Shown in pieces: positions 5,883 through 30,095 of a stretch of 64,000 nt of DNA. Within the stretch, counting starts at the first letter, position 1, and each line of letters opens with the position of its first letter. This DNA comes from Burkholderiales bacterium 70-64 (lineage in GTDB: Bacteria > Pseudomonadota > Gammaproteobacteria > Burkholderiales > Burkholderiaceae_E): contig MKUQ01000016.1 of the NCBI GenBank assembly GCA_001898645.1, forward strand, positions 248,001 to 312,000, in the 5' to 3' direction. The position numbers and the translations under genes were made by a program. The notes beneath the pieces were generated by a model. That model ran no database searches and was not told where the DNA came from. It was given only the letters and a program-made list of their open reading frames with translations.

Positions 5883-6857
5883 TCACTGTGCGTTCTGGAT
5901 CCCCCGCTCGCGGATCACGTCGCTCCACTTCCGGAAATCGTTGCCGACGAGTTGCGCGAAATCGGCCGCGCTGCCGTCCATCGGATCCACACCGGATGCC
6001 GCGAACTGCTTCGCCATGTCAGGGCTGCGGATCGCCGCGCGGATCGATGCATTGAGCTTCTCGACCACGTCGCTAGGGACTCCGGCAGGTGCGAATATCC
6101 CGAACCACGCACTGACGTCGAACGCGGGAAGCCCCAGTTCGGCGAATGTCGGAACGTCCGGCATCTGCGTCGAGCGTTTCGCCGAAGTGACGGCCAGCGC
6201 CCGGAGGGTATGCGCCTGCACCTGCTTGGTCGCGGTGAGCACCAGATCGAACATGAGGTCGACGTGTCCACCGAGCAGGTCGTTCAACGCCGGGGCGCTG
6301 CCCTTGTACGGGATGTGATTGAGCCTGATTCCCGTCATCGACTGGAGCAGCTCGCCCGCAAGGTGATTCGAAGTGCCGACGCCGGCCGACGCGTAGCTCA
6401 GCGTACCGGGCGCCGTGCGGCCCAGCGCAATCAGGTCGCCGTAAGACTTCACCGGCAGCGAACTCCTCGTCACCAGGGCGAACGGAATCGTCGCGACGGG
6501 CGCTATCGGCGTAAAGTTCCTGACCGGGTCGTAGCCGATCCTCGGGTTCAGCGCGGGGTTCATGGCATGCGAGGTCACCGTCCCGATCATCAGCGTATAG
6601 CCGTCTCCATGCGCTGCCGCTACTTCCCGCGTGCCCAGCGCCGTACCTGCGCCCGGACGGTTCTCGACGACGACGGCTTGGCCGAGGTCCTGGAACATCG
6701 CGGCCGCGAGGCTGCGTGCGAGCATGTCGGCGGAACCGCCGGGCGGGTAAGGGACGACCATCCGGATCGGTTTCACCGGAAAAGCCTGCGCCGCAGCGCT
6801 GACCGCGAACAGCAGCGGCAGCATGGCTGCCGCGATCTTACAGAAGTTGCTTCGCAT
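5883..6857 (-). CDS. Bug-family (TctC-like) periplasmic solute receptor
   Basis: A 324-residue tripartite-tricarboxylate-transporter-type receptor that would bind a carboxylated solute in the periplasm. It begins with a signal peptide (MRSNFCKIAAAMLPLLFAVSAAAQA), then the family start motif FPVKPIRMVVPYPPGG, and later the typical IPYKGSAPALNDLLGGHVD stretch. The start at 6857 is chosen because AGGGG lies about 10 bases upstream and the signal peptide begins there; in-frame codons further upstream encode a charged non-signal segment. It is the last gene of the catabolic operon, 93 bases after the UbiD-like gene. No TctA/TctB membrane subunits are in the window, so it is an orphan receptor that either uses components elsewhere or acts as a sensor. 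Confidence 0.88.
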   Translation of the reverse strand: MRSNFCKIAAAMLPLLFAVSAAAQAFPVKPIRMVVPYPPGGSADMLARSLAAAMFQDLGQAVVVENRPGAGTALGTREVAAAHGDGYTLMIGTVTSHAMNPALNPRIGYDPVRNFTPIAPVATIPFALVTRSSLPVKSYGDLIALGRTAPGTLSYASAGVGTSNHLAGELLQSMTGIRLNHIPYKGSAPALNDLLGGHVDLMFDLVLTATKQVQAHTLRALAVTSAKRSTQMPDVPTFAELGLPAFDVSAWFGIFAPAGVPSDVVEKLNASIRAAIRSPDMAKQFAASGVDPMDGSAADFAQLVGNDFRKWSDVIRERGIQNAQ

Positions 6858-6950
6858 CTTCGGATCCCCTCTTGGTTTATCGTTGCCGGATCGCTGCACC
6901 TGCCGCTCCCCGCGCTCGCCGCGGCCCCTCGGAACGGACGACAACCTTCG

Positions 6951-8363
6951 TTACGCACCCCGGTTCCCAGGGGGCAGGTAGTCACGAAGATTCACGGAAT
7001 CCCACAGATGCTTCGCGGGGCGAACGCGTTCCGGGAACTGCCTGTTCAGCGGACGAGTCGTATCGATGATGACCTTGGTAGTCATCGGACCTCTCTCGCT
7101 TCGCGTTTCGCCATACGCAGAGGGATCCAGATGTGCGCCGAAGCTATTGGTGATGATCGAGCAATCCTTGTCCGCCTGTACTCTCGTGGCGATGGCCCAG
7201 AGCACCTCCCCCTCGTCATGAATGTCGATGTCATCGTCGACGATGACCACGTGCTTCACGTCGTAGTTCGATCCCAGGACCGCGAGGCCCGCGAGTTTCC
7301 CCTCTCCCTGGGCACGCTTGCGTATCGACACATAGCAATGCCAGAAATTGGCCCCTGAGGGAGGCAGATGCACACCGACCAAGGTCGGGACGATCTCCCG
7401 AAGCCGCCGGAAGAGTTGCGCTTCGCGTCCCAGGACTCCCACTTGGGTGTGCTCCCGAAAAGACGGGAAGAGATCGTGCCAGATCGGATCTTTGCGATGT
7501 GTGATCGCACTGACGTCGATGACCGGCACCTTCATGGGTGCGCCGTAGTAGCCTGCGTACTCCGCGAAAGGGCCGTCCATTTCGAACGAGTCCTGGTGGA
7601 TTCGCCCTTCGATCACGACCTCGGCGTAGGCCGGAACCATCAGATCCACCGTCTTGCAGGGAACCAGCTCCACCGCCTCTCCCAGCAGCCCGCCCGTGAC
7701 GGCCAGTTCATCGTGCTCCAGCGGACCACGCGAGGCCGCACCGATGTGATATGCGGGATGATGCCCAACGAAAACCGCCACCTCCATCGAACGGCCAGCG
7801 CTGTGGTGACGGTTTCGGATCGTTGCGGCATGCTGCACGGGATTCATCATGCAGCCCATGCGTGCCGGCCCCTTCAACTCATGCCGATAAGTTCCGACAT
7901 TGGTGACTCCACTCACCGGGTCCTTGCATATCATGCATCCGATCGTGATGTATCTACCTGAGTCTCCTGCACAATGCTGCTGGACCGGAAGATTCTCCAG
8001 ATTGATATCCTCGCCCGTCATGACGATCTCATGCACCGGCGCCGTGCCTCCGGAAAACAAGACCGGTGCAATCTGATTCGCCTCGCGACGCATATACTCT
8101 TCCAGAACCCGCTCTTTCTCCGTCGGATCCACTTCGAGCGCGTGAGCCAGAAGGCTATAACTCGAAAATAGGCCGGTCGCGACCGGCCAGCCATGCCCGG
8201 CAACGTTCTTGAACAAGACTGCGGGATATCTGCCCTCTTTCGCGAGCTTCTCTTGAATCAGTGTCATGTACAGATCCCGCGGGATCTGTCGCTCGATCTC
8301 CACCAGGTCGTCGGATCCACTGGTACGCAGCTTCTCGATGAAATAACGTAGATCCTTTACCAT
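6951..8363 (-). CDS. UbiD-family decarboxylase
   Basis: A 470-residue member of the UbiD family of prenylated-FMN-dependent (de)carboxylases. The cofactor-binding block TNVGTYRHELKG and the NRHHSAGRSMEVAVFVG block are present. The catalytic acidic motif reads DGPFAEYAGYYG, with Asp where UbiD and Fdc1 have Glu in the EGPFG(E/D) motif, a possible substrate-class difference. C-terminal UbiD features include VIVDDDIDIHD and ATRVQADKD. The start at 8363 (MVKDLRYF) has AGGAG 11 bases upstream; a TTG at 8387 would add eight residues. The cofactor would come from a UbiX-type prenyltransferase, and one is encoded at 45239-45817. It sits between the diiron-type protein and the Bug receptor in the island. 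Substrate unknown. Confidence 0.88.
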   Translation of the reverse strand: MVKDLRYFIEKLRTSGSDDLVEIERQIPRDLYMTLIQEKLAKEGRYPAVLFKNVAGHGWPVATGLFSSYSLLAHALEVDPTEKERVLEEYMRREANQIAPVLFSGGTAPVHEIVMTGEDINLENLPVQQHCAGDSGRYITIGCMICKDPVSGVTNVGTYRHELKGPARMGCMMNPVQHAATIRNRHHSAGRSMEVAVFVGHHPAYHIGAASRGPLEHDELAVTGGLLGEAVELVPCKTVDLMVPAYAEVVIEGRIHQDSFEMDGPFAEYAGYYGAPMKVPVIDVSAITHRKDPIWHDLFPSFREHTQVGVLGREAQLFRRLREIVPTLVGVHLPPSGANFWHCYVSIRKRAQGEGKLAGLAVLGSNYDVKHVVIVDDDIDIHDEGEVLWAIATRVQADKDCSIITNSFGAHLDPSAYGETRSERGPMTTKVIIDTTRPLNRQFPERVRPAKHLWDSVNLRDYLPPGNRGA

Positions 8364-8438
8364 GGGTACGCTCACTCCTGCAGACAACGAATTCCCTACA
8401 CGAAGACGAGGCTCGTCTCCCGGGAGGTTTCTCTTCGT

Positions 8439-9368
8439 TCAGATCTTTCCGGTTCTTGGGTGATAAAAGGTCGGCAGGTCGATATCCCACTCGCGCTTCA
8501 TGCGGTCGCGGATTTCACGAAGCGACGAAACGAAAACGGGCTTCTCGAGCTCTTCGATGCTGGCGCCGAGCCCTGCCTGCCAAAGGATTCGATCACTTTC
8601 GATCTGGGCGCTGGAAGCCTCGCTTTCCGGGGCGAGCCATGCGATCTGATACCCGTTCAACTCGACCTTCTCGATCATCGTCACGACCGCATCGCGAACA
8701 CGTTTGCGCGCATCCGCGCCAAGTCCAGGCAGGCGGCTCGCCATGAAATACCAGCCGAAGGCGCAATGCCTCGCCTCGTCACGAAGGATCAGCTGATATG
8801 TCTTCCTGATGGCAGGTTGTGTCGTTATCTCGGCGATGTGCTTGAACAGGTTGAATATCACCTGCTCGGCAGAGCATACGAGCGCGGCGACGGTGCACTC
8901 GACAGACGTATCCGCATCCAATGCAAGGCGTCGAACACCGTGAGTCGACACGGAGTTCTCGTAGTCATCAGCCGGAGCATCGATATAGCCGCCGAATTTC
9001 TCGGCGAGACGGTAGCTGATCTCCGCATGGCGCGATTCCTCCTGCGAGCGAATGCTGAAGTACAACTGTGCGTCCGGATCGACCCGATCGTGGCAGAAGC
9101 GTATCTGCAGGGCCGGGCTCTCCGAGATCGCTCCGTATTCGCCCCATGCCCGGCGACTCCAGCGCGTACGCAGAGCCGTGCGCTGCTCCGGGGAGTACGC
9201 ACTCGTGTCGATGCCATCCCAGTCGATCACCGTCGATGGATTCCATTGAGTGGTGAGCGACGCATGGAACAGCTTCCTGATCTTCGAATTGAACTCGCCG
9301 ACATCGAGCGGAAACCGGCTTTCCGGCTGATCGAGAATGCTTCTGTAAGAGTTCGTCTCTGCGGTCAT
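8439..9368 (-). CDS. Ferritin-like diiron protein, probable oxygenase subunit with intact ligands
   Basis: A 309-residue, mostly helical protein of the ferritin-like/diiron superfamily. Both metal-binding pairs are visible: EESRH (about residue 118) and DEARH (about 206). Further Glu residues sit in the first helix (WGEYGAISE) and third helix (SAEQVIFNLF). This is the E...ExxH...E...ExxH pattern of diiron oxygenases such as AurF-type N-oxygenases and related hydroxylases; the precise reaction cannot be read from sequence. The start at 9368 (MTAETNS) has GGAG six bases upstream; an ATG at 9389 is the alternative. The next upstream gene (9436-10344) is a clear paralogue that has lost two ligands, so the two may form a heteromer. 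Confidence 0.75.
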   Translation of the reverse strand: MTAETNSYRSILDQPESRFPLDVGEFNSKIRKLFHASLTTQWNPSTVIDWDGIDTSAYSPEQRTALRTRWSRRAWGEYGAISESPALQIRFCHDRVDPDAQLYFSIRSQEESRHAEISYRLAEKFGGYIDAPADDYENSVSTHGVRRLALDADTSVECTVAALVCSAEQVIFNLFKHIAEITTQPAIRKTYQLILRDEARHCAFGWYFMASRLPGLGADARKRVRDAVVTMIEKVELNGYQIAWLAPESEASSAQIESDRILWQAGLGASIEELEKPVFVSSLREIRDRMKREWDIDLPTFYHPRTGKI

Positions 9369-9435
9369 GTGCGTCTCCGGCTGATCCATTCGATTCGCCC
9401 CACCGGGCTCCGGGATGCTTTCCATTCCGGGCGTG

Positions 9436-10344
9436 TCAGAGTTCACCCAGGCGTGGGTGAGGCAGCGCCGGCAATTCCAGGCCCAGCCCGCGCAGACGTG
9501 ATCGCGCGCTTGCCAGGTAGGCACGGAAGATCTCCTCTTCCGCCGGCGCGGTCGCTGCGCCCAGCCCGCTTTCCGCTGCGAGCGCCTGCGCCCGCTTCTC
9601 CGTGCCGCCATCGATCGTCGTCGAGAGCGATGGGATGTGATACCCCGCGAATGCCACGCCCTTCAGCCAGGCGCTGGCGGCCTCGGCTATCGCCGCGCGC
9701 TGCCGGCTGTCGAACTCCCCGGAGCGCTTCGCCAGATATCGCCAACCGAACTCGGCATGGCGCGCCTTGGCGCGAACGCTCCTTTCCAGGATCTTCCGCG
9801 CCACCGCCTCCCTGGCGTTCGCCAGATAGGCGCGAAACAGCTCCAGCTCGAGCCCGTCTTCGATCGCGCAGTGAACCGCGACGTATGCGTCGAGGTCGAC
9901 CTCGGCATTGAGCGCATCACGGTAATAGCCGCGATTGATCACAGCCTCCCAGCCTCGTTCGGTGGGCCTGTCGAGGCAAGGCCCGAGCGACTTGGCGTAT
10001 CGATCGAAACACTCGACCAGCATCGCTTCTTCGGTATTGCGTACCGTGAGAAAGTACTTCGCGTCGACTTCACGGGCCCGTTCCATGCAGAACCGCAGCA
10101 GCAGCGCCGGAGTTTCCGCGATCCCCGTGTATTCCAGCCATGTCCGCCTGCTCCAGACCGTACGTGCGGCATCGCGCTGCGCAGCCGGCAACGCCGCGGG
10201 ATCGAAGGCACTCCAGGGGATATCGCCTTCCGGTGACCAGGTGTCGAGCTTCGCGTCTTCGTACAACCGGTGGATCGGAGCGATGCGGGTCGCCAGATCC
10301 AGGGGGAAGCGGACTTCGACCGGAATTCTGATGGGTGTGCTCAT
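9436..10344 (-). CDS. Ferritin-like diiron-family paralogue lacking iron ligands
   Basis: A 302-residue paralogue of the neighbouring diiron-type protein; they align throughout (for example WSRRTWLEYTGIAETPAL against WSRRAWGEYGAISESPAL). The iron-binding pairs are damaged: EESRH in the partner reads EEAML here, so the His is Leu, and DEARH reads AKARH, so the Glu is Lys. The helix-1 and helix-3 Glu residues remain. A normal diiron site is therefore unlikely, suggesting a structural or regulatory partner subunit. The start at 10344 overlaps the upstream stop as ATGA, so it is translationally coupled to the iron-sulfur flavoprotein. It may equally have a different role; no biochemical function is known to me. 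Confidence 0.68.
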   Translation of the reverse strand: MSTPIRIPVEVRFPLDLATRIAPIHRLYEDAKLDTWSPEGDIPWSAFDPAALPAAQRDAARTVWSRRTWLEYTGIAETPALLLRFCMERAREVDAKYFLTVRNTEEAMLVECFDRYAKSLGPCLDRPTERGWEAVINRGYYRDALNAEVDLDAYVAVHCAIEDGLELELFRAYLANAREAVARKILERSVRAKARHAEFGWRYLAKRSGEFDSRQRAAIAEAASAWLKGVAFAGYHIPSLSTTIDGGTEKRAQALAAESGLGAATAPAEEEIFRAYLASARSRLRGLGLELPALPHPRLGEL

Positions 10345-12938
10345 TGTTGGTCCCCGAGGGAAGCCGACCCGTCGGCGGTGGACGGGCTTGCAGCGCAACC
10401 GCTCTCGATCCCGACCACGTGATTGATGAAATAAGGCAGGTCGTAGACCGGCATGTCGTGCTTGCCGAGGCCTTCGAACTGGGTATGGCACCACGAGCAC
10501 GCCGTGATGACCGCGTCGGCGCCGGTTTCCCGCGCTTCGGACAGCAACCGGCCCTCGCCGATCTCGCGGGCGAGCTCCGGATCGCTCAGGTGCACCAGCC
10601 GATTCGGGCCGCCGCCGCAGCACTGCGTACCCTTCTTCGCCCGCCTCATCTCGGCCAGACGGAGACCGTCGATCGCGCCGAAGACCGCGCGTGGCTCATC
10701 GACCACCCCTGCCTTGCGCGCCAGCTGGCATGGATCATGATAGGTGACCACGCCCTCGTAGTCCTTCAGCCTCAATTTCCCATCCGCGAGCAGCCCGGCC
10801 AGGGTCTCGGCGAAATGCTCCACCGAGATGCCGTGCTTCTCGAGCTCGTAGTGCCGCCCGAGCATTTCGTGGCAGTCGGCGCACGCCGTGACGATTCTCT
10901 TGATCCCCATCGCCTCGAACAGCGCATGATTCTCGTCGCGCGACTGCTGGGCGAGCGCGGCATTCCCGCTCCAGAAGGCCGGGCTGCCGCAGCATTGCTC
11001 CCCATCCGCCACAGTGACCTGCATGCCGCCGCGCGCGAGCACCTCGACGGCGGATCTGGCAACCTCCGGGTAACGGTAGTAGTTGTTGCAGCCGATGAAG
11101 AACAACGTATCGGCGCCGTCCGTGACGGGCAGCCCGGACAACCGGTCACCATCGCACCCCAGGCAGCGTGATGCCTCGAACGCGGCCTCCTTCATCGAGA
11201 AGCCGCGGTCCACCTCGTCGAAGGTGGCGCGCCTGCGCTTCGAGCCGATCCGCCCCATCGGCGTGCGTCCTGCATGAACCCTCTGCGCATCGTGGGCCAC
11301 CGGCCAGGGCGGGACCCTCGCCTCATTCATCCCCGCCGCAGCGTGTTGGCGCGCCGGACGGCCAAGCAGCGCTGCTGCCGCCATCGCCGCATCCCGCCCC
11401 GAGGCCATGGCCTCCACGATCGATGTCGGGCCATTCACCACATCGCCCGCCGCGAAGATCGGAAGGGATGAACTGGCACGATACCCGGCGTCCACCACGA
11501 TATTTCCGCTTTCGTTCACTCGAAGAAGACCGCCGTCCATCCCCGGAAGATCGGCTTTCTGGCCGATGGCGACGATCACGGTGTCGGCCTCGATCCGTGC
11601 TTCGGATTCACGCAATGTCGCCCCGGAAGCTGCGCGCAATCGGACCGCATGCACCCTGCCTTCGAAACCGATGAACTCGGTGGGAACGACCGAATCGGTG
11701 AAGCGGACTCCCTCCTCGAGCGCACGAAGCAGATCCTCGTACTCGAACGGCGCTTTCTCGCGATGGCGCCGGTAGACGATCACCACCTCCCGCGCTCCGA
11801 GCCTCATCGCGGAGCGCGCAGCATCGAGGGCGGTTTTTCCGCCGCCGACGACGACGACACGGTTGCCGACATCGATGTCTTCCCCGCACTTCACGCTACG
11901 CAGGAACTCGAGCGCCCCCCGGACGCCGTCCAGGTCCTCGCCCGCGATCCCGATCCGCGCGGACGACCACGCGCCACCGCATACCAGGACCGCCGCGAAC
12001 CCGTCGTCGATCAGCCCCCGCAACCCCTTCTCTCCCGGGATCTCCACTCCGGTGCGTATCTCGACACCCAGCTCCTTCACGCGTTCGATGTCATACATCA
12101 CATCGTCGCTGCGTAGCGTGAAATCAGGGATCACGGTGGTCATCATGCCGCCTGGGACGCTGTCTTTCTCGAAGACGGTCACCCGAAACCCGTCTCGCCC
12201 CAGATGATTCGCTGCCGAGATGCCGGCCGGGCCGCTCCCGATCACCGCAATTCGCGGACCGGCAGGGACCGCATAGCGCCCGGCGACAGGGCGTTCAGAC
12301 TTCTTCTCCTGATCGATGCAGAATCTCTTCAAGCTCCTGATCGCAACAGGCTCGCCAATTTCCGACTGGCGGCATGCCGGCTCGCATGGATGCGTACACG
12401 CCCTTCCGCATACACTCGGAAGCGGGTTCGTCTTTCGAATCACTTCGAGAGCCTCGACCGGCGCCCCACGTGCGATCAGGCCGACATAGCCGGGAACATC
12501 CTGCTCGAGCGGACAGGCGATGCGGCAAGTCGCCTTGTTGCCGGGTCCGCTCCGCGTCGACTTGACCTGCTGGACGTTCCGGATCTTCTCCGGCGTCATC
12601 CCCAGACGGTGAAGCTCGTCGCGCATCGCCTGGTTGATGGCCGGCGAATCGATCTTGGCCCAATCGACCAATGAACAGGCGTCACGGCATCCATCGCACG
12701 AGAGGCAGGTGTAGACCAGGTCACGCAGATCGTACGAGACGTTCAGGCGTCCATCGATGATCCCGCGGGCAATCGTATTGCGGCCTCGCGCAGAGTAATG
12801 CTCGTGCCTGCGCCGCTCGCGCACCGGGCAGGGATGGTAGGTACCGGTGAGATCACGGACCATGTCGCGGCAATAGCCGCAACGATAGCAACGCATGATG
12901 TCCGCACGAACCCTCTCGAGCGCCGAATAGTCCGACAT
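10341..12938 (-). CDS. Multidomain iron-sulfur flavoprotein: HdrC/ferredoxin + GltD-like + HdrD-like (CCG) domains
   Basis: An 865-residue apparent electron-transfer fusion. Residues about 1-115 hold cysteine clusters (CYRCGYC and CLSCDGCRDAC) like HdrC or GlpC ferredoxin regions. Residues about 130-230 resemble the Fe-S domain of glutamate synthase small subunit and dihydropyrimidine dehydrogenase (CGRACTHPCEPAC). Residues about 228-540 are an FAD/NAD(P) oxidoreductase (GSGPAGISAA, then GGGKTALDAARSA). Residues about 615-850 carry two CCG-type modules (EQCCGSPAFW and TQCCGGGPNR), as in HdrD, GlpC or GlcF. The gene overlaps the GlcD-like FAD enzyme upstream by one base, so the two probably form a complex oxidising a 2-hydroxyacid-like substrate and passing electrons through clusters to a pyridine nucleotide or another acceptor. 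The direction of flow is unknown. Confidence 0.8.
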   Translation of the reverse strand: MSDYSALERVRADIMRCYRCGYCRDMVRDLTGTYHPCPVRERRRHEHYSARGRNTIARGIIDGRLNVSYDLRDLVYTCLSCDGCRDACSLVDWAKIDSPAINQAMRDELHRLGMTPEKIRNVQQVKSTRSGPGNKATCRIACPLEQDVPGYVGLIARGAPVEALEVIRKTNPLPSVCGRACTHPCEPACRQSEIGEPVAIRSLKRFCIDQEKKSERPVAGRYAVPAGPRIAVIGSGPAGISAANHLGRDGFRVTVFEKDSVPGGMMTTVIPDFTLRSDDVMYDIERVKELGVEIRTGVEIPGEKGLRGLIDDGFAAVLVCGGAWSSARIGIAGEDLDGVRGALEFLRSVKCGEDIDVGNRVVVVGGGKTALDAARSAMRLGAREVVIVYRRHREKAPFEYEDLLRALEEGVRFTDSVVPTEFIGFEGRVHAVRLRAASGATLRESEARIEADTVIVAIGQKADLPGMDGGLLRVNESGNIVVDAGYRASSSLPIFAAGDVVNGPTSIVEAMASGRDAAMAAAALLGRPARQHAAAGMNEARVPPWPVAHDAQRVHAGRTPMGRIGSKRRRATFDEVDRGFSMKEAAFEASRCLGCDGDRLSGLPVTDGADTLFFIGCNNYYRYPEVARSAVEVLARGGMQVTVADGEQCCGSPAFWSGNAALAQQSRDENHALFEAMGIKRIVTACADCHEMLGRHYELEKHGISVEHFAETLAGLLADGKLRLKDYEGVVTYHDPCQLARKAGVVDEPRAVFGAIDGLRLAEMRRAKKGTQCCGGGPNRLVHLSDPELAREIGEGRLLSEARETGADAVITACSWCHTQFEGLGKHDMPVYDLPYFINHVVGIESGCAASPSTADGSASLGDQQ

Positions 12939-14383: not shown

Positions 14384-14516
14384 CTCCTGATCTCCAACTC
14401 CACTATTGTTCCGACCCACGTGGTCACGTCACGCAAGGGCTACGCCGGCAGGCCTCCATGCGGTTCGACAGGCAGCGCCGCGGGAGTGCTCCCCAGCCGT
14501 CGATCGAACAGCGCCG

Positions 14517-19974: not shown

Positions 19975-19990
19975 CGTCGTCCTCTCGCTC

Positions 19991-20040
19991 ATGCGTTTAC
20001 GTCAATACGCTTCCCCGACTGTCACCGCTGCACGGTGCAG
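19991..20040 (-). promoter_or_regulatory. Leader elements of the lactonase operon (shared blocks and palindrome)
   Basis: Reading the plus strand, TGCGTTTACG at 19992-20001 and TCACCGCTG at 20022-20030 recur exactly in the leader of the Liv operon (30170-30179 and 30189-30197), in the same order. A perfect 13-base palindrome, CTGCACGGTGCAG, covers 20028-20040. Candidate binding sites or RNA elements; the factor is unknown. Confidence 0.4.
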
Positions 20041-21890: not shown

Positions 21891-21938
21891 CGACGCCCCC
21901 TCCAAAAAAAGCCCCGGAGTTCCCGGAGATTCAGGACG

Positions 21939-23105: not shown

Positions 23106-23120
23106 GCCCCCAATCTCCCT

Positions 23121-23585: not shown

Positions 23586-23587
23586 GA

Positions 23588-24775
23588 TCAGATCACTCCT
23601 TCGGCCATCAAGTTCTTCACCTCGTCGACCGAAAGATCCAGCAGCTCGGTCAACACGCTTACGTTGTCGCCGCCGAGCCGGGGCGGCGTCGAGTAGTGCC
23701 GAATGGGCGTGCGCGACAGCTTGATGGGGTTGCCGAACATGCGCAGATCGTCCCCGGAGTGATCGACCGAGACCACCATGCCGCGATGCAGCAGGGCCGG
23801 GTCGTCGAAGACCTTGTCGATGGCGTTCACCGGCGCGAACGGCACGCCGAAGCTCGAGAAGATCTCGCTCCACTCCCGACACGTCCTCGATTCGAAGACC
23901 CTGTCGAGGATTGCGTTCAGCTCCCCCTTGTTCTTCAATCGGTCGCCGAGCCTCGCGAAACGCGGATCGTGCTTGAGCTCGGGCGCCTCCAGGGCGTCAC
24001 AGAGAACCCCCCAGAACTTCTCGTTGGCGCAACTGACCGTAATGAACTGATCCTTCGTCTTGAATGCCTGGAACGGAACGATCGACTGGTGCCCGGAACC
24101 GACAGGTCCCGCCACCTCGTTGGCCTGGCTGAAATACAAGGCGGGATAGGTTATGAACGCTGCCAGCGAATCGAGAAGGGCGATATCGACGAGCTGCCCC
24201 TCCCCCTCCTTGTCACGATGGCGCAATGCCGCCAGGATTCCCACGGTCGACCACATCGACGCAGCCAGGTCTCCCATCGGCACACCGAGCCTGAGCGGAA
24301 CGCGCCCTTCCTCTCCGGTCATGCTCATCGAACCGCTCAAGGCCTGGATATTCAGGTCATACGCGGGCCGATCGCCGTAGGGACCATCCGTCCCGTAAGC
24401 AGTGATCGAACAGCAAATGATCCGTTCGTTGACTTCCGCCAGGCGCGCATAGTCGATCCCGAGCTTGCGTGTGATTCCCGGGCGGTAGTTGTCGATCACG
24501 ACGTCGGCCTTGCGGACCAGCGCAAGAAAGATCTCCTTGCCCCTGGGCGAGTTCAGGTCCAGCGTGATCGCCTTCTTGTTGCGGTTCAGGCTGATGTAAT
24601 AGAGCGACTCCCCATCGTGGAAATGAGGTGGAATGGCCCGGCTCGCATCTCCGACTGCTCGCTGCTCCACCTTGATGATCTCCGCGCCGAGGTCGCCGAG
24701 GATCATCGTCGCGAACGGACCGGACATGAACGTCGTCAGGTCGATAACCCGGACTCCTTCGAGCGCCTTCTTCAT
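23588..24775 (-). CDS. Class III (CaiB/BaiF-type) CoA-transferase
   Basis: A 395-residue family III CoA-transferase that would move CoA from a donor to a carboxylic acid in the cytoplasm. The N-terminal block LEGVRVIDLTTFMSGPFATM and the EIIKVE motif are canonical. The likely catalytic Asp is in GVPMGDLAASM (about residue 172), where formyl-CoA transferase has its nucleophile. It follows the GntR regulator gene by about 20 bases and precedes DUF35 and thiolase, suggesting activation of an acid before thiolytic cleavage. The substrate is unknown. Confidence 0.9.
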   Translation of the reverse strand: MKKALEGVRVIDLTTFMSGPFATMILGDLGAEIIKVEQRAVGDASRAIPPHFHDGESLYYISLNRNKKAITLDLNSPRGKEIFLALVRKADVVIDNYRPGITRKLGIDYARLAEVNERIICCSITAYGTDGPYGDRPAYDLNIQALSGSMSMTGEEGRVPLRLGVPMGDLAASMWSTVGILAALRHRDKEGEGQLVDIALLDSLAAFITYPALYFSQANEVAGPVGSGHQSIVPFQAFKTKDQFITVSCANEKFWGVLCDALEAPELKHDPRFARLGDRLKNKGELNAILDRVFESRTCREWSEIFSSFGVPFAPVNAIDKVFDDPALLHRGMVVSVDHSGDDLRMFGNPIKLSRTPIRHYSTPPRLGGDNVSVLTELLDLSVDEVKNLMAEGVI

Positions 24776-24796: not shown

Positions 24797-25516
24797 TCAG
24801 TCGGCTTTCTTGTTCGATTTCAGGATCCTGTGCAGATCCTGAAGTGCGCCATAAATGATCGCTTCGGCACGCCGCGCTGCTTCATCCACGAACCCTTCCT
24901 TCATCGCCGCGACCAGCTGCAGATGCTCTTGAAGCGATTGGTCGAGATTTTCCGTCTGCAGGATCACGAGAAAGCGAAAACGCTGGATCTGTCTGGACAA
25001 CTGCCTCCAGATCGCCTGAAGCCGCTGGTTCGGGCAGCTCGAAATGAGGAGGTTGTAGAAACCTTCGACTGCACGAACGAAGCCCGTCTTGTCCCCAAGC
25101 TCGGCACTGCGACGCATTGCCTCCAGACTCCCCCCGAGCCTTGCGACGATTGCCGACGCAGAGGGTTGTTGAAGGATCGTTCGTACGGCCAGCGCGTTCA
25201 GCGATGCACGCAGCGGGTAGATCTCGTTCAGATCCTTCATGTTCATTTCCGAGACCAGGAAGACGCTGCGCGGCCTTCGCGTCACCAACCCCTCCCGCTG
25301 CAACAGCAGCAGCGCTTCCCGAACCGGGGACTTGCTGATTCCGAGGTCCGAGGCGATCTGCGCGGGATTCAGGACAGTCCCCGGGGGCAGGCTCCCGTCG
25401 GCGATTCTTGTCTCGAGATAGTCCTCCGCCACCTTGGCCAGGGACGACGGCAGGCTCACCGCCCGATGCTCGTCGTCGGTTTCGGCAGATCCGGAGTCAA
25501 GTTCGATCGTTTGCAA
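24797..25516 (-). CDS. GntR-family regulator with FCD domain
   Basis: A 239-residue repressor-type regulator. A winged-helix GntR domain (about 25-95; NPAQIASDLGISKSPVREALLLL) is followed by a helical FCD ligand-binding domain (about 100-230). In the FCD domain the usual Asp-x3-His motif reads EGFYN, and the third His is not apparent, so the classical metal site seems incomplete; the EH in LQEHLQL remains. Located inside the Liv operon between livF and the CoA-transferase, it probably senses the substrate or an intermediate. The shared operator-like sequences at 20110-20140 and 30249-30263 are its likeliest targets, by inference. Confidence 0.87.
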   Translation of the reverse strand: MQTIELDSGSAETDDEHRAVSLPSSLAKVAEDYLETRIADGSLPPGTVLNPAQIASDLGISKSPVREALLLLQREGLVTRRPRSVFLVSEMNMKDLNEIYPLRASLNALAVRTILQQPSASAIVARLGGSLEAMRRSAELGDKTGFVRAVEGFYNLLISSCPNQRLQAIWRQLSRQIQRFRFLVILQTENLDQSLQEHLQLVAAMKEGFVDEAARRAEAIIYGALQDLHRILKSNKKAD

Positions 25517-25532: not shown

Positions 25533-26261
25533 TCAGTGTCTGGTCATTCCAGACGTTCCGAGGTACGTCTTCAGGATGAAATCATCCTTCAGGAGATCGT
25601 CCCGGGACCCGCCGGAGACGACCTTTCCCCTCTCCAATACATAACCGCGGTCTGCCAGTTGCAAGGCAATGCGTGCATTCTGCTCCACCAGCAATATCGT
25701 CACCCGGCCACGCAATTGATCCAGCACCCGGAAGATGTCCCTGACGATCAGGGGTGCGAGCCCCATCGACGGCTCATCGAGCAAGAGGAGCTTCGGGCGA
25801 CTCATCATCGCCCGTGCGATCGCCAGCATCTGCTGTTCGCCGCCCGAGAGAAGGCCCGCCATCTGGTTTTCGCGTTTTCCGAGGATGGGAAAGGTCTCGT
25901 ACAACCCCTCGAGGTCGCGGCGGACCTCGGCTCTCTGTGCCGGTCCGCGCCTCAGGTACGCGCCCAGCAGCAGGTTCTCCTTGACCGTCAGCGGCCCGAA
26001 CACCCGACGGCCCTCGGGAACCATCGCTATGCCGCATGCCACCACCGCCGATGGGCCCAGACCCCGTATCGTCCTTCCGTCGAAGCTGATCGCACCCGAC
26101 CCGACAGCCGACATGCCGCAGATCGAGCGCAACAAGGTGGTCTTGCCCGCGCCATTGGGCCCGATCACGCATACGAGCTCACCCTGCCGGACGTTCAGAT
26201 CCACGTCCTGCAGAACGCGCAGATGGCCATAACCCGCGTTGATTTTTTCGACGCTGAGCAT
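25533..26261 (-). CDS. livF: Branched-chain amino acid-type ABC transporter ATP-binding protein
   Basis: A 242-residue LivF-type ATPase. Walker A is GPNGAGKTT (about 34), the signature is LSGGEQQMLAIARA (about 136), Walker B is LLLLDEPSMGL (about 157). It energises uptake by the LivHM permease together with LivG. The gene starts one base after livG ends and 16 bases separate it from the GntR gene, so the importer and regulator are co-transcribed. Related importers carry amino acids, but many in catabolic loci carry aromatic or aliphatic acids; the substrate here is unknown. Confidence 0.93.
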   Translation of the reverse strand: MLSVEKINAGYGHLRVLQDVDLNVRQGELVCVIGPNGAGKTTLLRSICGMSAVGSGAISFDGRTIRGLGPSAVVACGIAMVPEGRRVFGPLTVKENLLLGAYLRRGPAQRAEVRRDLEGLYETFPILGKRENQMAGLLSGGEQQMLAIARAMMSRPKLLLLDEPSMGLAPLIVRDIFRVLDQLRGRVTILLVEQNARIALQLADRGYVLERGKVVSGGSRDDLLKDDFILKTYLGTSGMTRH

Positions 26262-26262
26262 G

Positions 26263-27030
26263 TCAAACCTCGGTACCCAGGTAGACCTCGATGACCCTCT
26301 CGTTCCGCTGGATGTCCTCCGGGGTACCCTCGGCGATCTTCTCGCCGAAGTTCAGCACCACGATTTCATCGCTCAGGTTCATCACAAGATGCATATCATG
26401 CTCGACGAGAAGCACGGTGACGCCGTCGTCGCGGATTTCCCTGACGAGCTTCATCATGTGTTCTGCTTCGTTGCGCGTGAGCCCCGCCGCGAATTCATCG
26501 AGCAACAGGAGCTGCGGACTCAGCGCCAGGGCACGTGCCATCTCGAGCAGCTTCAGCTCCCCGCAGGCAAGATCGCCGGCGCCCTCGTTCGCCTTGTCCG
26601 ACAGCCCCACCTTTTCCAGGATTTCGAGACAGCGATCGTGCATCTCCCGCTCTTCCCTGCGCGAGCGGCTCGTGAAAAGCAGGGCGTCGAGCCAACCCGC
26701 CCTGCCTCGCAGATGACATCCCACCTGCACATTCTCCAGGACGGACATCCCCTCGAAGATCTGGGGAGTCTGGAATGTCCGCCCCATGCCCATTGCGGCA
26801 CGACGGTTCGACTTCAGGCCATTGACGACTCGACCACCGAGGCGAATCTGACCGACCGAGGGAGAATCGATTCCGGTGATCAGATTGAACAGGGTGCTCT
26901 TGCCGGCGCCGTTCGGTCCGATCACGGCCTTGATGCTCCGCTCCGGTACCTGGAACGAGAGGTTGGATATGGCCGTCAATCCGCCGAAAGACTTGCTTAC
27001 TTCATCGACGCTCAGGAAGACATCCGCCAC
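26263..27030 (-). CDS. livG: Branched-chain amino acid-type ABC transporter ATP-binding protein
   Basis: A 255-residue LivG-type ATPase. Walker A is GPNGAGKST (about 37), the signature reads LACGELKLLEMARA (Cys in place of the common Ser), and Walker B is LLLLDEFAAGL with Phe where Pro is usual. The N-terminal MADVFLSVDEVSKSFGG start is as expected. It lies directly before livF and 15 bases after livM. With LivF it forms the ATPase dimer of the importer. Confidence 0.93.
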   Translation of the reverse strand: MADVFLSVDEVSKSFGGLTAISNLSFQVPERSIKAVIGPNGAGKSTLFNLITGIDSPSVGQIRLGGRVVNGLKSNRRAAMGMGRTFQTPQIFEGMSVLENVQVGCHLRGRAGWLDALLFTSRSRREEREMHDRCLEILEKVGLSDKANEGAGDLACGELKLLEMARALALSPQLLLLDEFAAGLTRNEAEHMMKLVREIRDDGVTVLLVEHDMHLVMNLSDEIVVLNFGEKIAEGTPEDIQRNERVIEVYLGTEV

Positions 27031-27045
27031 GATTCAGCGATCTCC

Positions 27046-28017
27046 TTACGCCCGCCTGGTCATTCGAAACCTGAGACCCAGATCGCGAAACAGCGACACC
27101 AAACCCTTCGGCATGAACATCATCACTCCGACCAGAATCGCCCCGTAAAGCACGACGTCGAGGCCTTCATAGGCGCGTAGATACTCCGGGAGGAAAGTGA
27201 GGATACCTCCGCCGATGACAGGCCCCCAGAAGGTGCCGATCCCCCCGACGACGACCATCGTCAATATCAGGACCGAATTCATGAACCCGAAGGTATCCGG
27301 GGCCACGAAGTTGATGTAATGCACATAAAGGGTGCCCGCGACCGCCGCGTACGCGGCGGACAGGACGAACACGACGACCTTGTACCTGTAGGTGTCTACG
27401 CCGATACACTCGGCGGCGACATCGCCACCCTTGATGGCGTTGAGTGCCCTGCCTATGCGCGACGTTCTGAGATTGAGCGCGGCGAGCGCACCGATCGCCA
27501 CCCATCCCCAAATGAAGTAGTAATTCGCGACAGGGGATCCGACCGCGATCGGGCCCACCGAAAAACTCGGTACGTCGACCAGACCGGAGGGCCCGCCCGT
27601 GAGCCCCGAGAATTGCACGAACAGGGTATGGATGATGATGCCCACGCCAAGCGTAGCCATGGCCAGATAGTGCCCCTTGAGCCGCAACGTGGACAGCCCT
27701 ATCGCAAGCGCCACGGTGCATGTCCCGAATACGGACGCAACCAGCCCGAGCACCGGAGGCCAGCCGAATTTGGCCGTAAGAACGCCGGAAATATAGGCGC
27801 CGAGGCCCCAGAAGGCCGCATGACCGAGGGAGATCTGGCCAGCATATCCCATGAGGATATTCAAACCGATGCTCAGCAGGATGTGTATCCCTGCGAACCC
27901 GACGATGCTGAGCAGATAGGCGTTCGGCGACGTGGCGGGGAATGCCGCGACGAGCGCCAGGAATACGCATAGCGAAAACCACCGGGGAAGCCGGGCGCGC
28001 TCAGAACTTGACGGCAC
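27046..28017 (-). CDS. livM: Branched-chain amino acid-type ABC transporter permease
   Basis: A 323-residue inner-membrane permease with about eight to ten hydrophobic segments. The cytoplasmic EAA-like loop GRALNAIKGGDVAAECIGVD (about 206-225), where it contacts the ATPases, and the GYAGQISLGHAAFWGLGAY block (about 59) are typical of LivM. It overlaps the end of livH by 17 bases, so the two permease subunits are coupled. The C-terminus is charged and cytoplasmic. Confidence 0.92.
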   Translation of the reverse strand: MPSSSERARLPRWFSLCVFLALVAAFPATSPNAYLLSIVGFAGIHILLSIGLNILMGYAGQISLGHAAFWGLGAYISGVLTAKFGWPPVLGLVASVFGTCTVALAIGLSTLRLKGHYLAMATLGVGIIIHTLFVQFSGLTGGPSGLVDVPSFSVGPIAVGSPVANYYFIWGWVAIGALAALNLRTSRIGRALNAIKGGDVAAECIGVDTYRYKVVVFVLSAAYAAVAGTLYVHYINFVAPDTFGFMNSVLILTMVVVGGIGTFWGPVIGGGILTFLPEYLRAYEGLDVVLYGAILVGVMMFMPKGLVSLFRDLGLRFRMTRRA

Positions 28018-28885
28018 GTTCCCTCCCGGTGCCTCCGAGCAGGCCGGAAGGCCTGACGAGAAGCAGGATGATCAGCAGCAGAAAGGCAACGGCATCCTGG
28101 TAGCCGCTACCGCCCCAACCCGCGGTGAAGGCCTCGGCCGCGCCGAGGATCAATCCGCCGAGGAACGCGCCGTAGACATTCCCCATGCCGCCGATGATGG
28201 CCGCGCAGAATCCCTTGAGGCCGAGGATCGTACCATGATCATATGAGGTCATCGTCAGCGGTGTGATGATCACGCCGGCCAGGGCGCCGATGCCAGCCGC
28301 GACGGCGAATGACACGGTGCACAAACGCTTGACGGGAGCCCCCATCAACGCCGCTGTCTCCCTGTCGACCGCTGCAGCACGCATGGCAGTGCCCGTCACG
28401 GATTTCTTGAGGAAGAAACCCACGGCCGCCATGACCAGCAGAGCGATCCCGATGACCCACAGCGCCTGGGGCGTTATGGTGGCGCCGTGGAATGCCAGCG
28501 ACTCTTCGCCGGAGAATGCCGCGAGACCCTTGGGGAACTTGCCCCAGATCATCATCACCAGGCCCTTGATCATGATGGCCAGTCCGATGGTCACGATGAT
28601 CAGGTTCAGGACCTCTGGCTTGCGGCTCAGGCCCAGTGTCATCTTCTCGGCGAACAGGCCGATCAACGTGACCGCGATGACCGCGAACGTCAACGCCGCC
28701 GGCACCGGCCAGCCGAAGCTGGCGGCCACGGCGGCGGCCGTCATGCCGCCCAGCATGACGAACTCGCCCTGGGCGAAGTTGATGACCCCGCTGGTGTTGT
28801 ACACCATGCAGAAACCGACGGCGACCAGACCATAGACACTGCCGATGGTCAGGCCGGAAATCAGAAGCTGCAGGAACTCCGTCAT
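28001..28885 (-). CDS. livH: Branched-chain amino acid-type ABC transporter permease
   Basis: A 294-residue LivH-type permease. The N-terminal block QLLISGLTIGSVYGLVAVGF and NFAQGEFVMLG (about 36) are canonical, and the C-terminus has GLILGAAEAFTAGWGGSGYQ. It forms the transmembrane pair with LivM. The gene follows the substrate-binding protein by 31 bases. Confidence 0.93.
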   Translation of the reverse strand: MTEFLQLLISGLTIGSVYGLVAVGFCMVYNTSGVINFAQGEFVMLGGMTAAAVAASFGWPVPAALTFAVIAVTLIGLFAEKMTLGLSRKPEVLNLIIVTIGLAIMIKGLVMMIWGKFPKGLAAFSGEESLAFHGATITPQALWVIGIALLVMAAVGFFLKKSVTGTAMRAAAVDRETAALMGAPVKRLCTVSFAVAAGIGALAGVIITPLTMTSYDHGTILGLKGFCAAIIGGMGNVYGAFLGGLILGAAEAFTAGWGGSGYQDAVAFLLLIILLLVRPSGLLGGTGRERAVKF

Positions 28886-28916
28886 GGGACCCTCGACGGT
28901 GTGAAGATCATCCCCC

Positions 28917-30095
28917 TTACTTGGTGTCCGCCCCCATCAGCAGCTTCCAGTCGCCGTTACGCCACTCCATGACCACGGCGTCATCCTTGGTGAGGCCGTA
29001 GTGCCGCTGCGGGCTGAACTTGTACAGGCCGTTCGTGCCGACGAATTCGAGGCGCTCGAGCGCGGCACGAATCTTTTCCTTGTCGAAGCTTTTCGCCGCC
29101 TCCAGAGCCTTGACGGCCATCAGCATTCCGTCATACGCCTCGGCGCCATACACGTCCGGCTCGTTTCCGTACTTCGCCACGTAATCCTTGATGTACTCGA
29201 GGATGACCTTCTTTGCGGGATCCGAGTCCGGAAGCTGGCGGCCAACAGGGAAGCGCAGCGATACGAGCACGGTTCCTTCGGCCGCGTCACCCGCCATTTC
29301 CATGTATTTCGGCACCACGTACCCGAACCCGTGCATCAGGATCTGCTTCATGCCGAGCTGACGCGCATTCTTCATGAAGACCACGCCCGACGGCGCAACG
29401 GTCCAGCACAGAATGACCTCCGGGTTGGCCGCGCGGATCCGGGTGAGCTGAGGGACCAGGTCATTCGCCGCCGCGTCGAATTCTTCCCAGGCAACGACGT
29501 TGATGCCCGCGCCCGGAGCCTGCAGCTTCAACTCGTCTCGCGCGCTGGTGCCGAAGCCGCTGGTGTCCGAAAGCATCGCGACCCGGGTGATCCCCTTGGA
29601 CTTCCACCAGTCGATCGCACGCCCCACGATCTCCCTGTCGGTGAGGTGGGACTTGAATGTCCACGTACTCTTCTCGATCGGCTCGACGATCCCGCTGGCT
29701 CCGGCATTCGAGATCATCGGAACGCCATGACGCATCGCAATCGGCTTCATGGCCAGGGAAAGGCCGCTCATGTTCCCGGCCCCGGAGATGATATCGACCT
29801 GATCCTGGGTAATGAGGCGGTTCGTCGCAGCCACGGCTTTCGTGACATCGCTTGCCGAATCGTAGACGATCAGTTTGACGGGATGGCCGTTGATGCCTCC
29901 CTTCTTGTTGATCTGTTCGACCATCATCTCGACCGTGGTCTTCATCCGCTCGCCGAGGAGCGCTCCTGCCCCGGTGTACGAGAAGACGCTGCCGATCTTG
30001 TATGCGCGCTGCTCCTCGGACAGGACATCCCGACCCCCGGTCAGCAATGCGATTCCCATGAGCGCGGCAGTCACCCACTGCCTGTTCAGGATCAT
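28917..30095 (-). CDS. livK: ABC transporter periplasmic substrate-binding protein (Leu/Ile/Val-binding type)
   Basis: A 392-residue type I periplasmic binding protein. A signal peptide (MILNRQWVTAALMGIALLTG) precedes two Rossmann-like lobes; KIGSVFSYTGAGALLGERM and VEQINKKGGINGHPVKLIV are typical family blocks. It delivers the substrate to LivHM. This is the first gene of the upstream operon; the start has a GAGGGAG ribosome site and lies about 120 bases downstream of a strong predicted promoter (30223-30251). Proteins of this branch in catabolic islands often bind aromatic or other organic acids. Confidence 0.92.
   Translation of the reverse strand: MILNRQWVTAALMGIALLTGGRDVLSEEQRAYKIGSVFSYTGAGALLGERMKTTVEMMVEQINKKGGINGHPVKLIVYDSASDVTKAVAATNRLITQDQVDIISGAGNMSGLSLAMKPIAMRHGVPMISNAGASGIVEPIEKSTWTFKSHLTDREIVGRAIDWWKSKGITRVAMLSDTSGFGTSARDELKLQAPGAGINVVAWEEFDAAANDLVPQLTRIRAANPEVILCWTVAPSGVVFMKNARQLGMKQILMHGFGYVVPKYMEMAGDAAEGTVLVSLRFPVGRQLPDSDPAKKVILEYIKDYVAKYGNEPDVYGAEAYDGMLMAVKALEAAKSFDKEKIRAALERLEFVGTNGLYKFSPQRHYGLTKDDAVVMEWRNGDWKLLMGADTK

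Follow-up and report, generated by a model that had tools for sequence, protein, structure and literature searches.

A run of 23 genes, extending from position 30095 to 5883 on the minus strand of the window (the whole stretch of 64,000 nucleotides analysed, from Burkholderiales bacterium 70-64), is a genuine bacterial cluster that would degrade an acid, probably a ring-shaped one, and is built around a putative paired iron-oxidase, which recurs in dozens of bacteria. The best explanation, to which as a whole we give about even weight, is that this island is a composite catabolic cluster, consisting of a recurring core and two added blocks. The point of interest is the paired-oxidase operon and not the link to aconitase X (AcnX); our literature search found no paper that describes the core or this operon.

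Layout of the island and its recurring core

Coordinates and family searches of the window placed all 23 genes of the sequence-only reading on the minus strand (Table 1) and support its description of a catabolic island with an importer, CoA chemistry and oxidative enzymes. Corrected frames were used for the coordinates, as CoxS was missing from the program-made list of open reading frames and some starts were merged. Most genes are tightly spaced or overlap, but the proposed division into two tandem operons is only approximate, because three larger gaps are present (216 bp between the AcnX swivel and MBL genes, 186 bp between MBL and CoxM and 97 bp between the Rid and GlcD genes). The G+C content is 0.60-0.66 inside the island, compared with 0.67-0.71 in the first 6 kb of the window and 0.69-0.74 from 30 kb on.

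Table 1. Genes of the island: product and assignment, position in the window, strand, and family matches with identities in related loci
LivK-type periplasmic binding protein (core)	28917..30095	-	Peripla_BP_6
LivH permease (core)	28001..28885	-	BPD_transp_2; 84-86% in L077/L078
LivM permease (core)	27046..28017	-	BPD_transp_2; 78-87% in L077/L078
LivG ATPase (core)	26263..27030	-	ABC_tran, BCA_ABC_TP_C; 72-81% in L077-L079
LivF ATPase (core)	25533..26261	-	ABC_tran; 72-78% in L077-L079
GntR/FCD regulator (core)	24797..25516	-	GntR + FCD; 52-59% in L078/L079, same place
CaiB-type class III CoA-transferase (added block 1)	23588..24775	-	CoA_transf_3, 430 bits
DUF35/ChsH2-type OB-fold partner (added block 1)	23121..23585	-	zf-ChsH2 + OB_ChsH2_C; best NCBIfam BbsA 59 bits, under cut-off
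SCP2/PRK06064-type thiolase (added block 1)	21939..23105	-	Thiolase_N + _C_1; PRK06064 415 bits (cut-off 420), BbsB 284
AcnX large subunit with atypical active site (added block 1)	20628..21890	-	AcnX, PF04412 351 bits
Aconitase X swivel small subunit (added block 1)	20209..20631	-	AcnX_swivel_put, PF01989 77 bits
MBL-fold hydrolase, lactonase-like (core variant)	19183..19992	-	Lactamase_B; 81-84% in L079/L118, 45-46% in L077/L078
CoxM/XdhB FAD subunit, molybdenum hydroxylase	18109..18996	-	FAD_binding_5, CO_deh_flav_C; 62-71% in 4 relatives
CoxS/XdhC 2Fe-2S subunit, molybdenum hydroxylase	17642..18112	-	XdhC 195 bits; 66-84% in 4 relatives
CoxL/XdhA molybdopterin subunit, molybdenum hydroxylase	15327..17615	-	MoCoBD_1 + _2; 69-81% in 4 relatives
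136-aa small protein, no assigned function (core)	14920..15330	-	weak TIGR04076, 21 bits (cut-off 33); 78-82% in L079/L118
Rid-family protein without usual Arg (PAST motif)	14517..14903	-	Ribonuc_L-PSP
GlcD-type FAD dehydrogenase (added block 2)	12938..14419	-	FAD_binding_4, FAD-oxidase_C
865-aa Fer4/NAD(P)-FAD/CCG electron-transfer oxidoreductase (FeSox, added block 2)	10341..12938	-	PRK12771 356 bits, cut-off 516
Diiron1, R2-like partner of Diiron2, metal ligands lost	9436..10344	-	R2lox-like fold
Diiron2, R2-like diiron protein, complete set of six ligands	8439..9389	-	R2lox/R2 fold
UbiD-family prFMN decarboxylase, HmfF-like (core)	6951..8387	-	UbiD; 81-85% in L077, L078, L118
TctC solute-binding protein	5883..6944	-	TctC; 53-58% near UbiD in L077, L078, L118

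The core comprises the Liv importer, GntR, MBL, CoxMSL, the small protein, Diiron1 and Diiron2, UbiD and TctC; four betaproteobacterial MAGs carry it too, with differences from gene to gene. In these closest relatives (L077, L078 and L079, whose compared stretches start within the Liv genes, and L118, which starts at MBL) much of the gene order is retained and most core genes share 60-87% identity, so the island is more than a chance assembly. UbiD accompanies the CoxMSL-diiron core in three of the four, the stretch from L079 showing none, and by these comparisons it travels with the oxidative core and not with AcnX. No close copy of LivK was seen in the four stretches, which begin within the Liv genes or at MBL; in a commoner operon form, 40-48% homologues adjoin the diiron pair at most loci. 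UbiD, CoxMSL and MBL are not members of this commoner form and therefore one substrate common to all operon forms is unlikely. A tandem rhodanese, missing in the window, belongs to the core of three relatives (L077, L079 and L118) and lies close to it in L078, a hint of sulfur chemistry, and in L079 a pyridine-nucleotide oxidoreductase-like gene directly follows Diiron2.

The paired R2-like proteins

Genes for Diiron1 and Diiron2 lie within 500 bp of each other in 45 of 46 loci, mostly alongside a Liv importer, in Betaproteobacteria, Alphaproteobacteria and beyond (record titles include Achromobacter, Azospirillum, Xanthobacter, Bradyrhizobium and Paraburkholderia). The six metal ligands of Diiron2 (E90, E118, H121, E175, E205 and H208, in the pattern E, ExxH, E, ExxH) are present in 47/47 close sequences, the window included, whereas Diiron1 has Lys at the ligand position Glu205 in 40/44 sequences, again including the window. 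A further change in Diiron1, Glu175 to Asp, is alignment-dependent, with a Glu one place earlier; the Diiron1 sequences are monophyletic (clade support 0.96). Since the gene pair is conserved and one diiron site is complete while the other is lost, the two proteins are most likely subunits of one oxygen-activating oxidase, as predicted from these sequences.

AF2 models of Diiron2 (pLDDT 90.2) and Diiron1 (pLDDT 95.3) both match the R2/R2lox fold (best E values 3.3e-5 and 1.5e-4; TM normalised to the query length, 0.42-0.69 among the matches listed), at a sequence identity of 11-19%, and the NCBIfam R2lox models score 16-20 bits against cut-offs of 194-315. R2lox carries a Val-Tyr ether crosslink; of the two window proteins, Diiron2 alone combines the R2-like fold with the six metal ligands. 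The window proteins share their fold, and Diiron2 its ligand pattern, with R2lox and ribonucleotide reductase R2, but differ in that a ligand-poor homologue serves as partner and the pair sits in transport and hydrolase operons. Catalytic subunits are combined with non-catalytic paralogues in PaaA/PaaC of phenylacetyl-CoA epoxidase and in bacterial multicomponent monooxygenases, and by analogy the window pair may join an active ferritin-like subunit to a degenerate one. The weaker matches to the Diiron1 model include PaaAC and PaaABC chains; however, the pair is nearer to R2lox in fold, and none of the genes checked was recognised as PaaE- or PaaB-like. Nor did the gene families checked in the commoner form include an obvious oxygenase reductase.

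Aconitase X and the added blocks

The sequence-only reading had joined AcnX, UbiD and thiolase-DUF35 in a single route resembling the archaeal modified mevalonate pathway. Although one region encodes all three chemistries, and AcnX is divided between two subunits as in the archaeal type with the three cluster Cys positions kept, we consider this explanation very remote. UbiD accompanies the oxidative core in the absence of AcnX, as described above, and has 6h6v as its nearest solved relative. None of seven genes (CaiB, DUF35, thiolase, the AcnX large and swivel subunits, GlcD and FeSox) occurs on the strand of the diiron pair within 9 kb in 45/45 loci, and for AcnX, thiolase and DUF35 these loci gave no match near the pair. 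For this reason CaiB-DUF35-thiolase-AcnX and GlcD-FeSox look like two added blocks, found among the compared loci in this genome only. A further pair from the same family (L192) is also without all seven genes; block 1 is absent in all three close relatives that cover the interval (L118 starts at MBL) and block 2 in all four, and CaiB genes at 33-35% in L086, L108 and L115 are further off or on the opposite strand. AcnX has no match in the genomes of three of the four close relatives and 27-29% matches only in the fourth, and its genes look like a later addition. Conserved neighbourhoods elsewhere, by which the sequence-only reading was to be refuted, partly speak against it, in that the cluster splits into modules. 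The earlier remark that no HMG-CoA gene is present holds genome-wide for HMG-CoA reductase, which also counts against the mevalonate analogy: PF00368 is unmatched in the organism's own 98%-complete assembly, whereas the same search was positive in 5/14 control genomes.

The window AcnX has the family features, namely a large domain, a swivel domain (in which a Ser-Thr, read by eye, is taken as the active-site pair) and cluster cysteines (C115, C298 and C357), and also keeps Y384. In the archaeal enzyme the residues for mevalonate 5-phosphate are Asn79, Glu129 and Lys361 (TkAcnX numbering), the At and Tk residues are equivalent and the 3-OH of the substrate is bound by Glu and Lys in both characterised types (PMC8184944). 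The window protein resembles aconitase X type II in its separate subunits and three Cys, but differs at precisely these places, with His71 for Asn79, Gly134 for Glu129 and Arg380 for Lys361. Arg380 occurs in none of the 49 readable sequences among 52 AcnX relatives, and Gly134 in 2/52. The replacement of the Glu and Lys also disfavours the idea that AcnX acts on cis-3-hydroxy-L-proline (PMC8184944), which is highly unlikely: the score is far under the model's cut-off of 700 (555 positions, spanning both parts), and none of the 23 genes matched a family of proline metabolism. The landmark residues are missing from AcnX subclasses c to f, which are uncharacterised (PMC8184944).

Spacing and strand suggest that the added blocks may function jointly with the core. 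Alternatively, CaiB-DUF35-thiolase-AcnX could be a small hydroxy-acid pathway of its own, inserted in the operon and merely sharing the importer, a possibility that we entertain tentatively. It would be consistent with the absence of block 1 beside the 45 pairs, with the 216-bp gap downstream of the swivel gene and with the varied contexts of AcnX elsewhere, as TctC is near AcnX in six of eight neighbourhoods and a Liv set in one (L165). However, the genes share a strand, CaiB follows GntR by just 21 bp and the second block is in the same operon, where FeSox overlaps Diiron1 by 4 bp (spacing -4 bp); in our judgement such tight coupling is rare for random neighbours.

Candidate substrate and route

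For the composite cluster, a heteroaromatic-acid pathway with an HmfF-like UbiD, a molybdenum hydroxylase, an oxidase and hydrolases fits best, and our first guess at the substrate is a five-membered heteroaromatic acid of the pyrrole, furan or thiophene type. UbiD is HmfF-like as judged by its domains, its REH His and its nearest structure, 6h6v, which we take to be HmfF (297 bits, the next protein of another name reaching 166 bits); Asp replaces Glu in its GPF(G/A)E motif. Two UbiX genes in the genome can supply prFMN. CoxMSL, with FAD, 2Fe-2S and Mo subunits all encoded, belongs to the xanthine dehydrogenase family of molybdenum hydroxylases, and the best PDB match of CoxL is nicotinate dehydrogenase (284 bits). 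Among the 23 genes there is no AMP-binding CoA ligase (HmfD) family and no family of the enoyl-hydratase-like kind to which HmfE belongs, which argues against a furan-type pathway as in the hmf cluster, where UbiD would decarboxylate a 2,5-furandicarboxylate-like acid and CoxMSL would carry out a furoyl-type hydroxylation. This pathway is unlikely, even though the 6h6v match and the retained His favour it and hmf clusters combine HmfF with HmfABC, a furoyl-CoA oxidase that has a molybdopterin cofactor (PMC12064950), much as a molybdenum hydroxylase and an HmfF-type UbiD are joined in the window. The hmf gene table of that paper has no role for a diiron pair or a Rid protein, and the window differs further in its MBL and ABC importer. 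The REH His is taken as equivalent to the key residue for furan specificity in HmfF given in PMC7976604, in which it is also stated that the UbiD class does not determine the substrate.

Several hydrolases accompany the pair. AiiA lactonases are the best solved relatives of MBL (69 bits), and in the commoner form an alpha/beta hydrolase family, for which kynurenine formamidase is the third-best solved relative (L094 copy), occurs with the pair in 30/45 loci; an amidase (L049) and a creatininase (L120) accompany it in other loci of this form. The N-heterocycle suggested earlier is still a candidate substrate, since in relatives the pair is joined by a Rid-family protein and by hydrolases of the amidase, creatininase or formamidase-like kind. 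In archetypal RidA an Arg is catalytic in imine deamination; this is Ser in the window and S or A in 24/24 copies from related loci, so imine hydrolysis by the window protein seems doubtful. In the Rut uracil pathway a single operon encodes an oxygenase, hydrolases and a Rid protein, a logic that the commoner form appears to share, but the oxygenase is a flavin enzyme there and a diiron enzyme here, and the window Rid protein is without the usual Arg.

In the proposed heteroaromatic-acid route, LivKHMGF would take up the (hetero)aromatic acid, UbiD would remove the ring carboxylate, CoxMSL would hydroxylate the electron-poor ring using water and the two-subunit diiron enzyme would open or oxygenate the ring with O2. 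MBL (elsewhere the alpha/beta hydrolase, amidase or creatininase) would then hydrolyse the lactone, lactam or N-acyl bond formed in this way, and an unstable intermediate may be the target of the Rid-type protein. The added blocks would form a lower pathway, in which GlcD-FeSox would oxidise a 2-hydroxy acid, AcnX, without two residues used by the characterised dehydratases, might dehydrate or hydrate an open-chain acid, CaiB would form a CoA ester and the thiolase-DUF35 pair would cleave it to acyl-CoA units.

More speculatively, two-subunit R2-like oxidases in which one subunit has an active diiron site and the other is metal-dead might form a widespread family that opens a class of heterocycles from within importer-hydrolase operons. 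In this genome the oxidase might have recruited an AcnX with a rebuilt active site, a CoA-transferase and a thiolase as lower pathway, and AcnX would thereby gain a third function, a catabolic one. If this is right, many soil and water bacteria would share a degradation route for which we found no assignment. At its head would stand an oxygen-activating enzyme in which a retired copy of the first subunit serves as the second, and this would allow a clean test of the influence of metal-dead paralogues on diiron chemistry. It would also place aconitase X outside its two known functions and show how a lower pathway can be built into a working operon one block at a time.

Gene content and setting of the island

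Family searches with corrected coordinates bore out the gene content given by the sequence-only reading: 23 genes lie on the same strand of the island, in the families as named. The CoxS frame was set by hand from longer frames, as were the starts of DUF35, AcnX large, swivel, CoxL, the 136-aa protein and both ferritin-like genes. G+C content is 0.60-0.66 within the island, compared with 0.67-0.74 in its flanks. Spacing suggests that LivK to AcnXS form one unit, with a largest internal gap of 48 bp, followed by MBL, by CoxM to RidA and by GlcD to TctC, where no gap exceeds 51 bp; the breaks between these units are 216, 186 and 97 bp. The host genome (4.7 Mb, 63 contigs) belongs to the same genus as compared genome G003, and the right-hand flank gene of the island has 51-58% identity to its counterparts in the nine genomes of this genus, other than the host's, that match it best. 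One of the host's two UbiX genes is in the window and the second is on another contig.

Coordinates of features in the window and in compared loci (L) and genomes (G)
Feature	Location	Strand	Context
Island, 23 genes	window 5883-30095	(-)	
Diiron2	window 8439-9389	(-)	
Diiron1	window 9436-10344	(-)	
Block 2: GlcD, FeSox	window 10341-14419		
136-aa protein	window 14920-15330		
Block 1: CaiB, DUF35, thiolase, AcnX large, AcnX small	window 20209-24775		between GntR and MBL
Cytochrome d1, NirDL-like regulator, tetrapyrrole methylase genes (denitrification type)	window 32996-36624		directly right of island
UbiX flavin prenyltransferase	window 45266-45811	(-)	15 kb from island
Diiron pair	G029:C1:2290188-2291766		
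AcnX	G029:C1:1043976-1045241		
409-429 aa protein	L097:6420-7709	(-)	divergent from GntR gene
409-429 aa protein	L094:6477-7706	(-)	divergent from GntR gene
451-aa ORF	L079:9506-10861		after Diiron2
451-aa ORF	L080:1362-2717		after Diiron2
Alcohol dehydrogenase-like gene	L118:8466-9641		between diiron pair and second Liv set
AcnX, Vibrio europaeus plasmid record	L047:15001-16710		

The Diiron1-Diiron2 pair and its operons

Sequence alone gives a barely recognisable family match for Diiron1 and Diiron2, the two ferritin-like proteins of the island, but the predicted models are confident (pLDDT 95.3 and 90.2, respectively) and both have the fold of the R2-like ligand-binding oxidases and ribonucleotide reductase R2. 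The six metal ligands of Diiron2 (E90, E118, H121, E175, E205 and H208) are present in 47/47 sequences of at least 50% identity, the window included, and each is found in 11 or 12 of the 12 relatives below 50%. Among 44 Diiron1 sequences, again with the window included, Lys occupies the E205 position in 40 and Asp the E175 position in 39, while H121 is lost in 18; the E175 change is the softest of these, a Glu being located one place earlier in Diiron1. The Diiron1 sequences form a single clade (support 0.96), and no single clade was recovered in the tree for the Diiron2 sequences above 50%. Two-subunit diiron oxygenases characteristically combine a complete site with a conserved dead partner, which is the pattern observed here, and we infer that Diiron1 and Diiron2 bind each other. 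No description of the pair was found in open-licence papers searched with few terms, which does not imply its absence from print.

The comparison was opened by a search with Diiron2 as query. In Paraburkholderia sp. PREW-6R, a plasmid has the genes of the two ferritin-like proteins (58% and 42%) flanked by LivK on one side and LivHMGF on the other; a Rid protein and an amidase come next. Genome contigs, scanned with an alignment of three sequences, provided 55 further loci, a lower bound since they were located via two exact peptide patterns, and all window genes were mapped on these loci and the plasmid. Judged by length and place, some entries are probably the same contigs (L071/L085, L191/L081, L127/G745:C53, L129/G834:C252 and L078/G003/G890), and L079 and L080 both derive from one Sterolibacterium MAG. 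Diiron2 is present at 44% or above on the plasmid and in 45 of the 55 contig loci, 46 in all, with Diiron1 no more than 500 bp away in 45 of the 46; the exception, L125, is truncated by the contig end. On the same strand and within 9 kb of these 45 pairs, the importer genes predominate (LivK 36, LivH 35, LivM 36, LivG 38, LivF 38), followed by RidA (18), CoxL (5, of which L117 has only 30%), TctC (4), MBL (3), UbiD (3) and the 136-aa protein (2). Within these limits, AcnX large, AcnX small, thiolase, DUF35, CaiB, GlcD and the Fer4/NAD(P)-FAD/CCG oxidoreductase FeSox occur in 0/45 loci; CaiB genes of 33-35% in L086, L108 and L115 are more distant from the pair or on the opposite strand.

The operon is patchy in the window's own family, since a strong Diiron2 match is present in only 3/73 other genomes. 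The importer is also not universal, because a further pair from this family (L192) has none of the other window genes beside it, Liv included. Genome G029, also of this family, contains both a diiron pair and AcnX, 1.2 Mb apart, and no Liv or other window gene adjoins its pair. Single Diiron2-like genes were observed in L122 and L130, MAG records titled Bordetella parapertussis, a species label that looks doubtful.

Four close relatives (L077, L078, L079 and L118) have the window's own form of the operon. CoxMSL, Diiron1 and Diiron2 in all four, and LivHMGF where covered (L077-L079), have 60-87% identity to the window, whereas the Liv set near the L118 pair has only 26-39%. In L077 and L078 the genes after Diiron2 are UbiD and TctC, which in L118 are located further along the same contig; the L079 stretch contains neither. 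For MBL, L079 and L118 are the closer relatives (81-84%) and L077 and L078 the more distant ones (45-46%). The position of RidA-GlcD-FeSox is occupied by a tandem rhodanese in L077, L079 and L118 (in L079 by clustering only) and by a Rid protein in L078, where the rhodanese is located further on; this rhodanese hints at a sulfur chemistry. Of the four, L078 shares the RidA gene with the window; in the other three it was not observed. In both contigs of the Sterolibacterium MAG, Diiron2 is followed by a 451-aa ORF, whose L079 copy falls in a pyridine-nucleotide oxidoreductase family; its product might serve as electron donor to the pair. A gene in L118 resembles, by eye, an iron-containing alcohol dehydrogenase.

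The commoner form comprises GntR/UTRA, LivK, Diiron2, Diiron1, LivHMGF and an alpha/beta hydrolase, together with a Rid protein and, in many cases, another hydrolase. LivG of at least 44% is near the pair in 34/41 loci outside the four close relatives, and the alpha/beta hydrolase family is present in 30/45 loci, as assigned by clustering, which depends on a simple ORF chooser. A creatininase-family gene directly follows the pair in L120. A protein of 409-429 aa, encoded divergently from the GntR gene in 15/45 loci, appears to be a family linked with the diiron operon; its L094 and L097 copies have strong third-position G+C, and the two copies scanned (L049 and L097) gave no Pfam match. A link to N-nitroglycine via Variovorax sp. 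JS1663 (L094) was dropped, as the lyase of this strain is a heme enzyme according to excerpts of PMC11035981 and no tie to the pair was found.

The AcnX-thiolase block

Block 1, which contains the AcnX and thiolase genes, is missing from 3/3 relatives that cover the interval, and in L079 the distance from GntR to MBL is about 105 bp in ORF coordinates. Block 2 is missing from 4/4 close relatives. The search for AcnX gave no match for the L077, L079 and L118 genomes and just two (27-29%) for the L078 genome; all of these are MAGs that may be incomplete. Going by strand and spacing, both blocks may work with the core.

A single-protein scan of genome contigs with AcnX returned no relative. Genome searches gave a best identity of 41% (40% for full-length matches), with matches, some of them short and weak, in 10/100, 7/273 and 48/398 other genomes in overlapping sets, and the best of 160 plasmid records has 39%. 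Eight AcnX neighbourhoods contain no DUF35 or CaiB and a single thiolase homologue, 4 kb away (38%, L170); four plasmid neighbourhoods contain no DUF35, CaiB or thiolase. Plasmid searches with UbiD, GlcD, thiolase, FeSox and CoxL yielded homologues below 60% only. No literature on AcnX with UbiD was found among open-licence papers searched with few terms, which likewise does not imply absence from print.

The window AcnX matches both domains of the family, and it scores 142-148 bits against four AcnX chains of solved structure. Compared with T. kodakarensis AcnX, Cys110, Cys283, Cys342, Ser130, Ser131 and Tyr365 are kept, whereas Asn79, Glu129 and Lys361 are replaced by His71, Gly134 and Arg380, respectively. 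In a survey of 52 relatives, three of them duplicates, Asp is the commonest residue at the Glu129 position (34), followed by Glu (16) and Gly (2); the Lys361 position is Lys in 49/49 readable relatives, and Cys283 is conserved in just 12. The two relatives with Gly (L135 and Vibrio plasmid L047) group with the window AcnX, and the Vibrio gene is near one annotated as phosphopyruvate hydratase. According to excerpts of PMC8184944, it is through this Glu and Lys that both characterised AcnX types hold the 3-OH of the substrate, and type II subclasses c to f are left without function; with both residues replaced, 'dehydratase' is therefore a guess for the window AcnX.

The sequence-only reading had joined AcnX, UbiD and thiolase-DUF35 in one route echoing the archaeal modified mevalonate pathway and had listed mevalonate-like acids and hydroxyproline among the candidate substrates. 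Mevalonate-like catabolism and hydroxyproline use are both disfavoured, on the joint grounds of the AcnX residues, the neighbourhoods and the missing HMG-CoA reductase. What that reading observed is thus borne out, and its interpretation in part: the catabolic cluster is genuine, but the AcnX-thiolase block is, judging from the loci compared, an addition in this genome.

Chemistry of the core

Among the remaining genes, MBL is putatively a lactonase, from a 69-bit similarity. The 136-aa protein has 78-82% identity in L079 and L118 and is otherwise nearly unmatched (a weak TIGR04076 match and three plasmid matches of about 30%). The usual Arg of Rid proteins is missing in the window and in 24/24 copies, those of L071 and L085 included, from the 46 loci searched, so we do not claim imine hydrolysis.

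The closest match of UbiD is 6h6v, which we take to be HmfF (297 bits), followed by a protein labelled AnInD (166 bits). In the window and the L077, L078 and L118 copies, the GPF(G/A)E motif has Asp in place of the Glu of 6h6v, with the REH His kept; this His would correspond to H297, described as key for furan specificity in excerpts of PMC7976604. CoxL has nicotinate dehydrogenase as its best solved match (284 bits) and PucD as its best model, below the cut-off of the latter. Excerpts of PMC12064950 indicate that the hmf cluster pairs a Mo hydroxylase with a UbiD, the same two enzyme kinds as in the island. Because of these likenesses, our first guess for the substrate is a heteroaromatic acid. 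By comparison of loci, the core of the island is defined by the importer, the Mo hydroxylase, UbiD and the paired R2-like oxidase.
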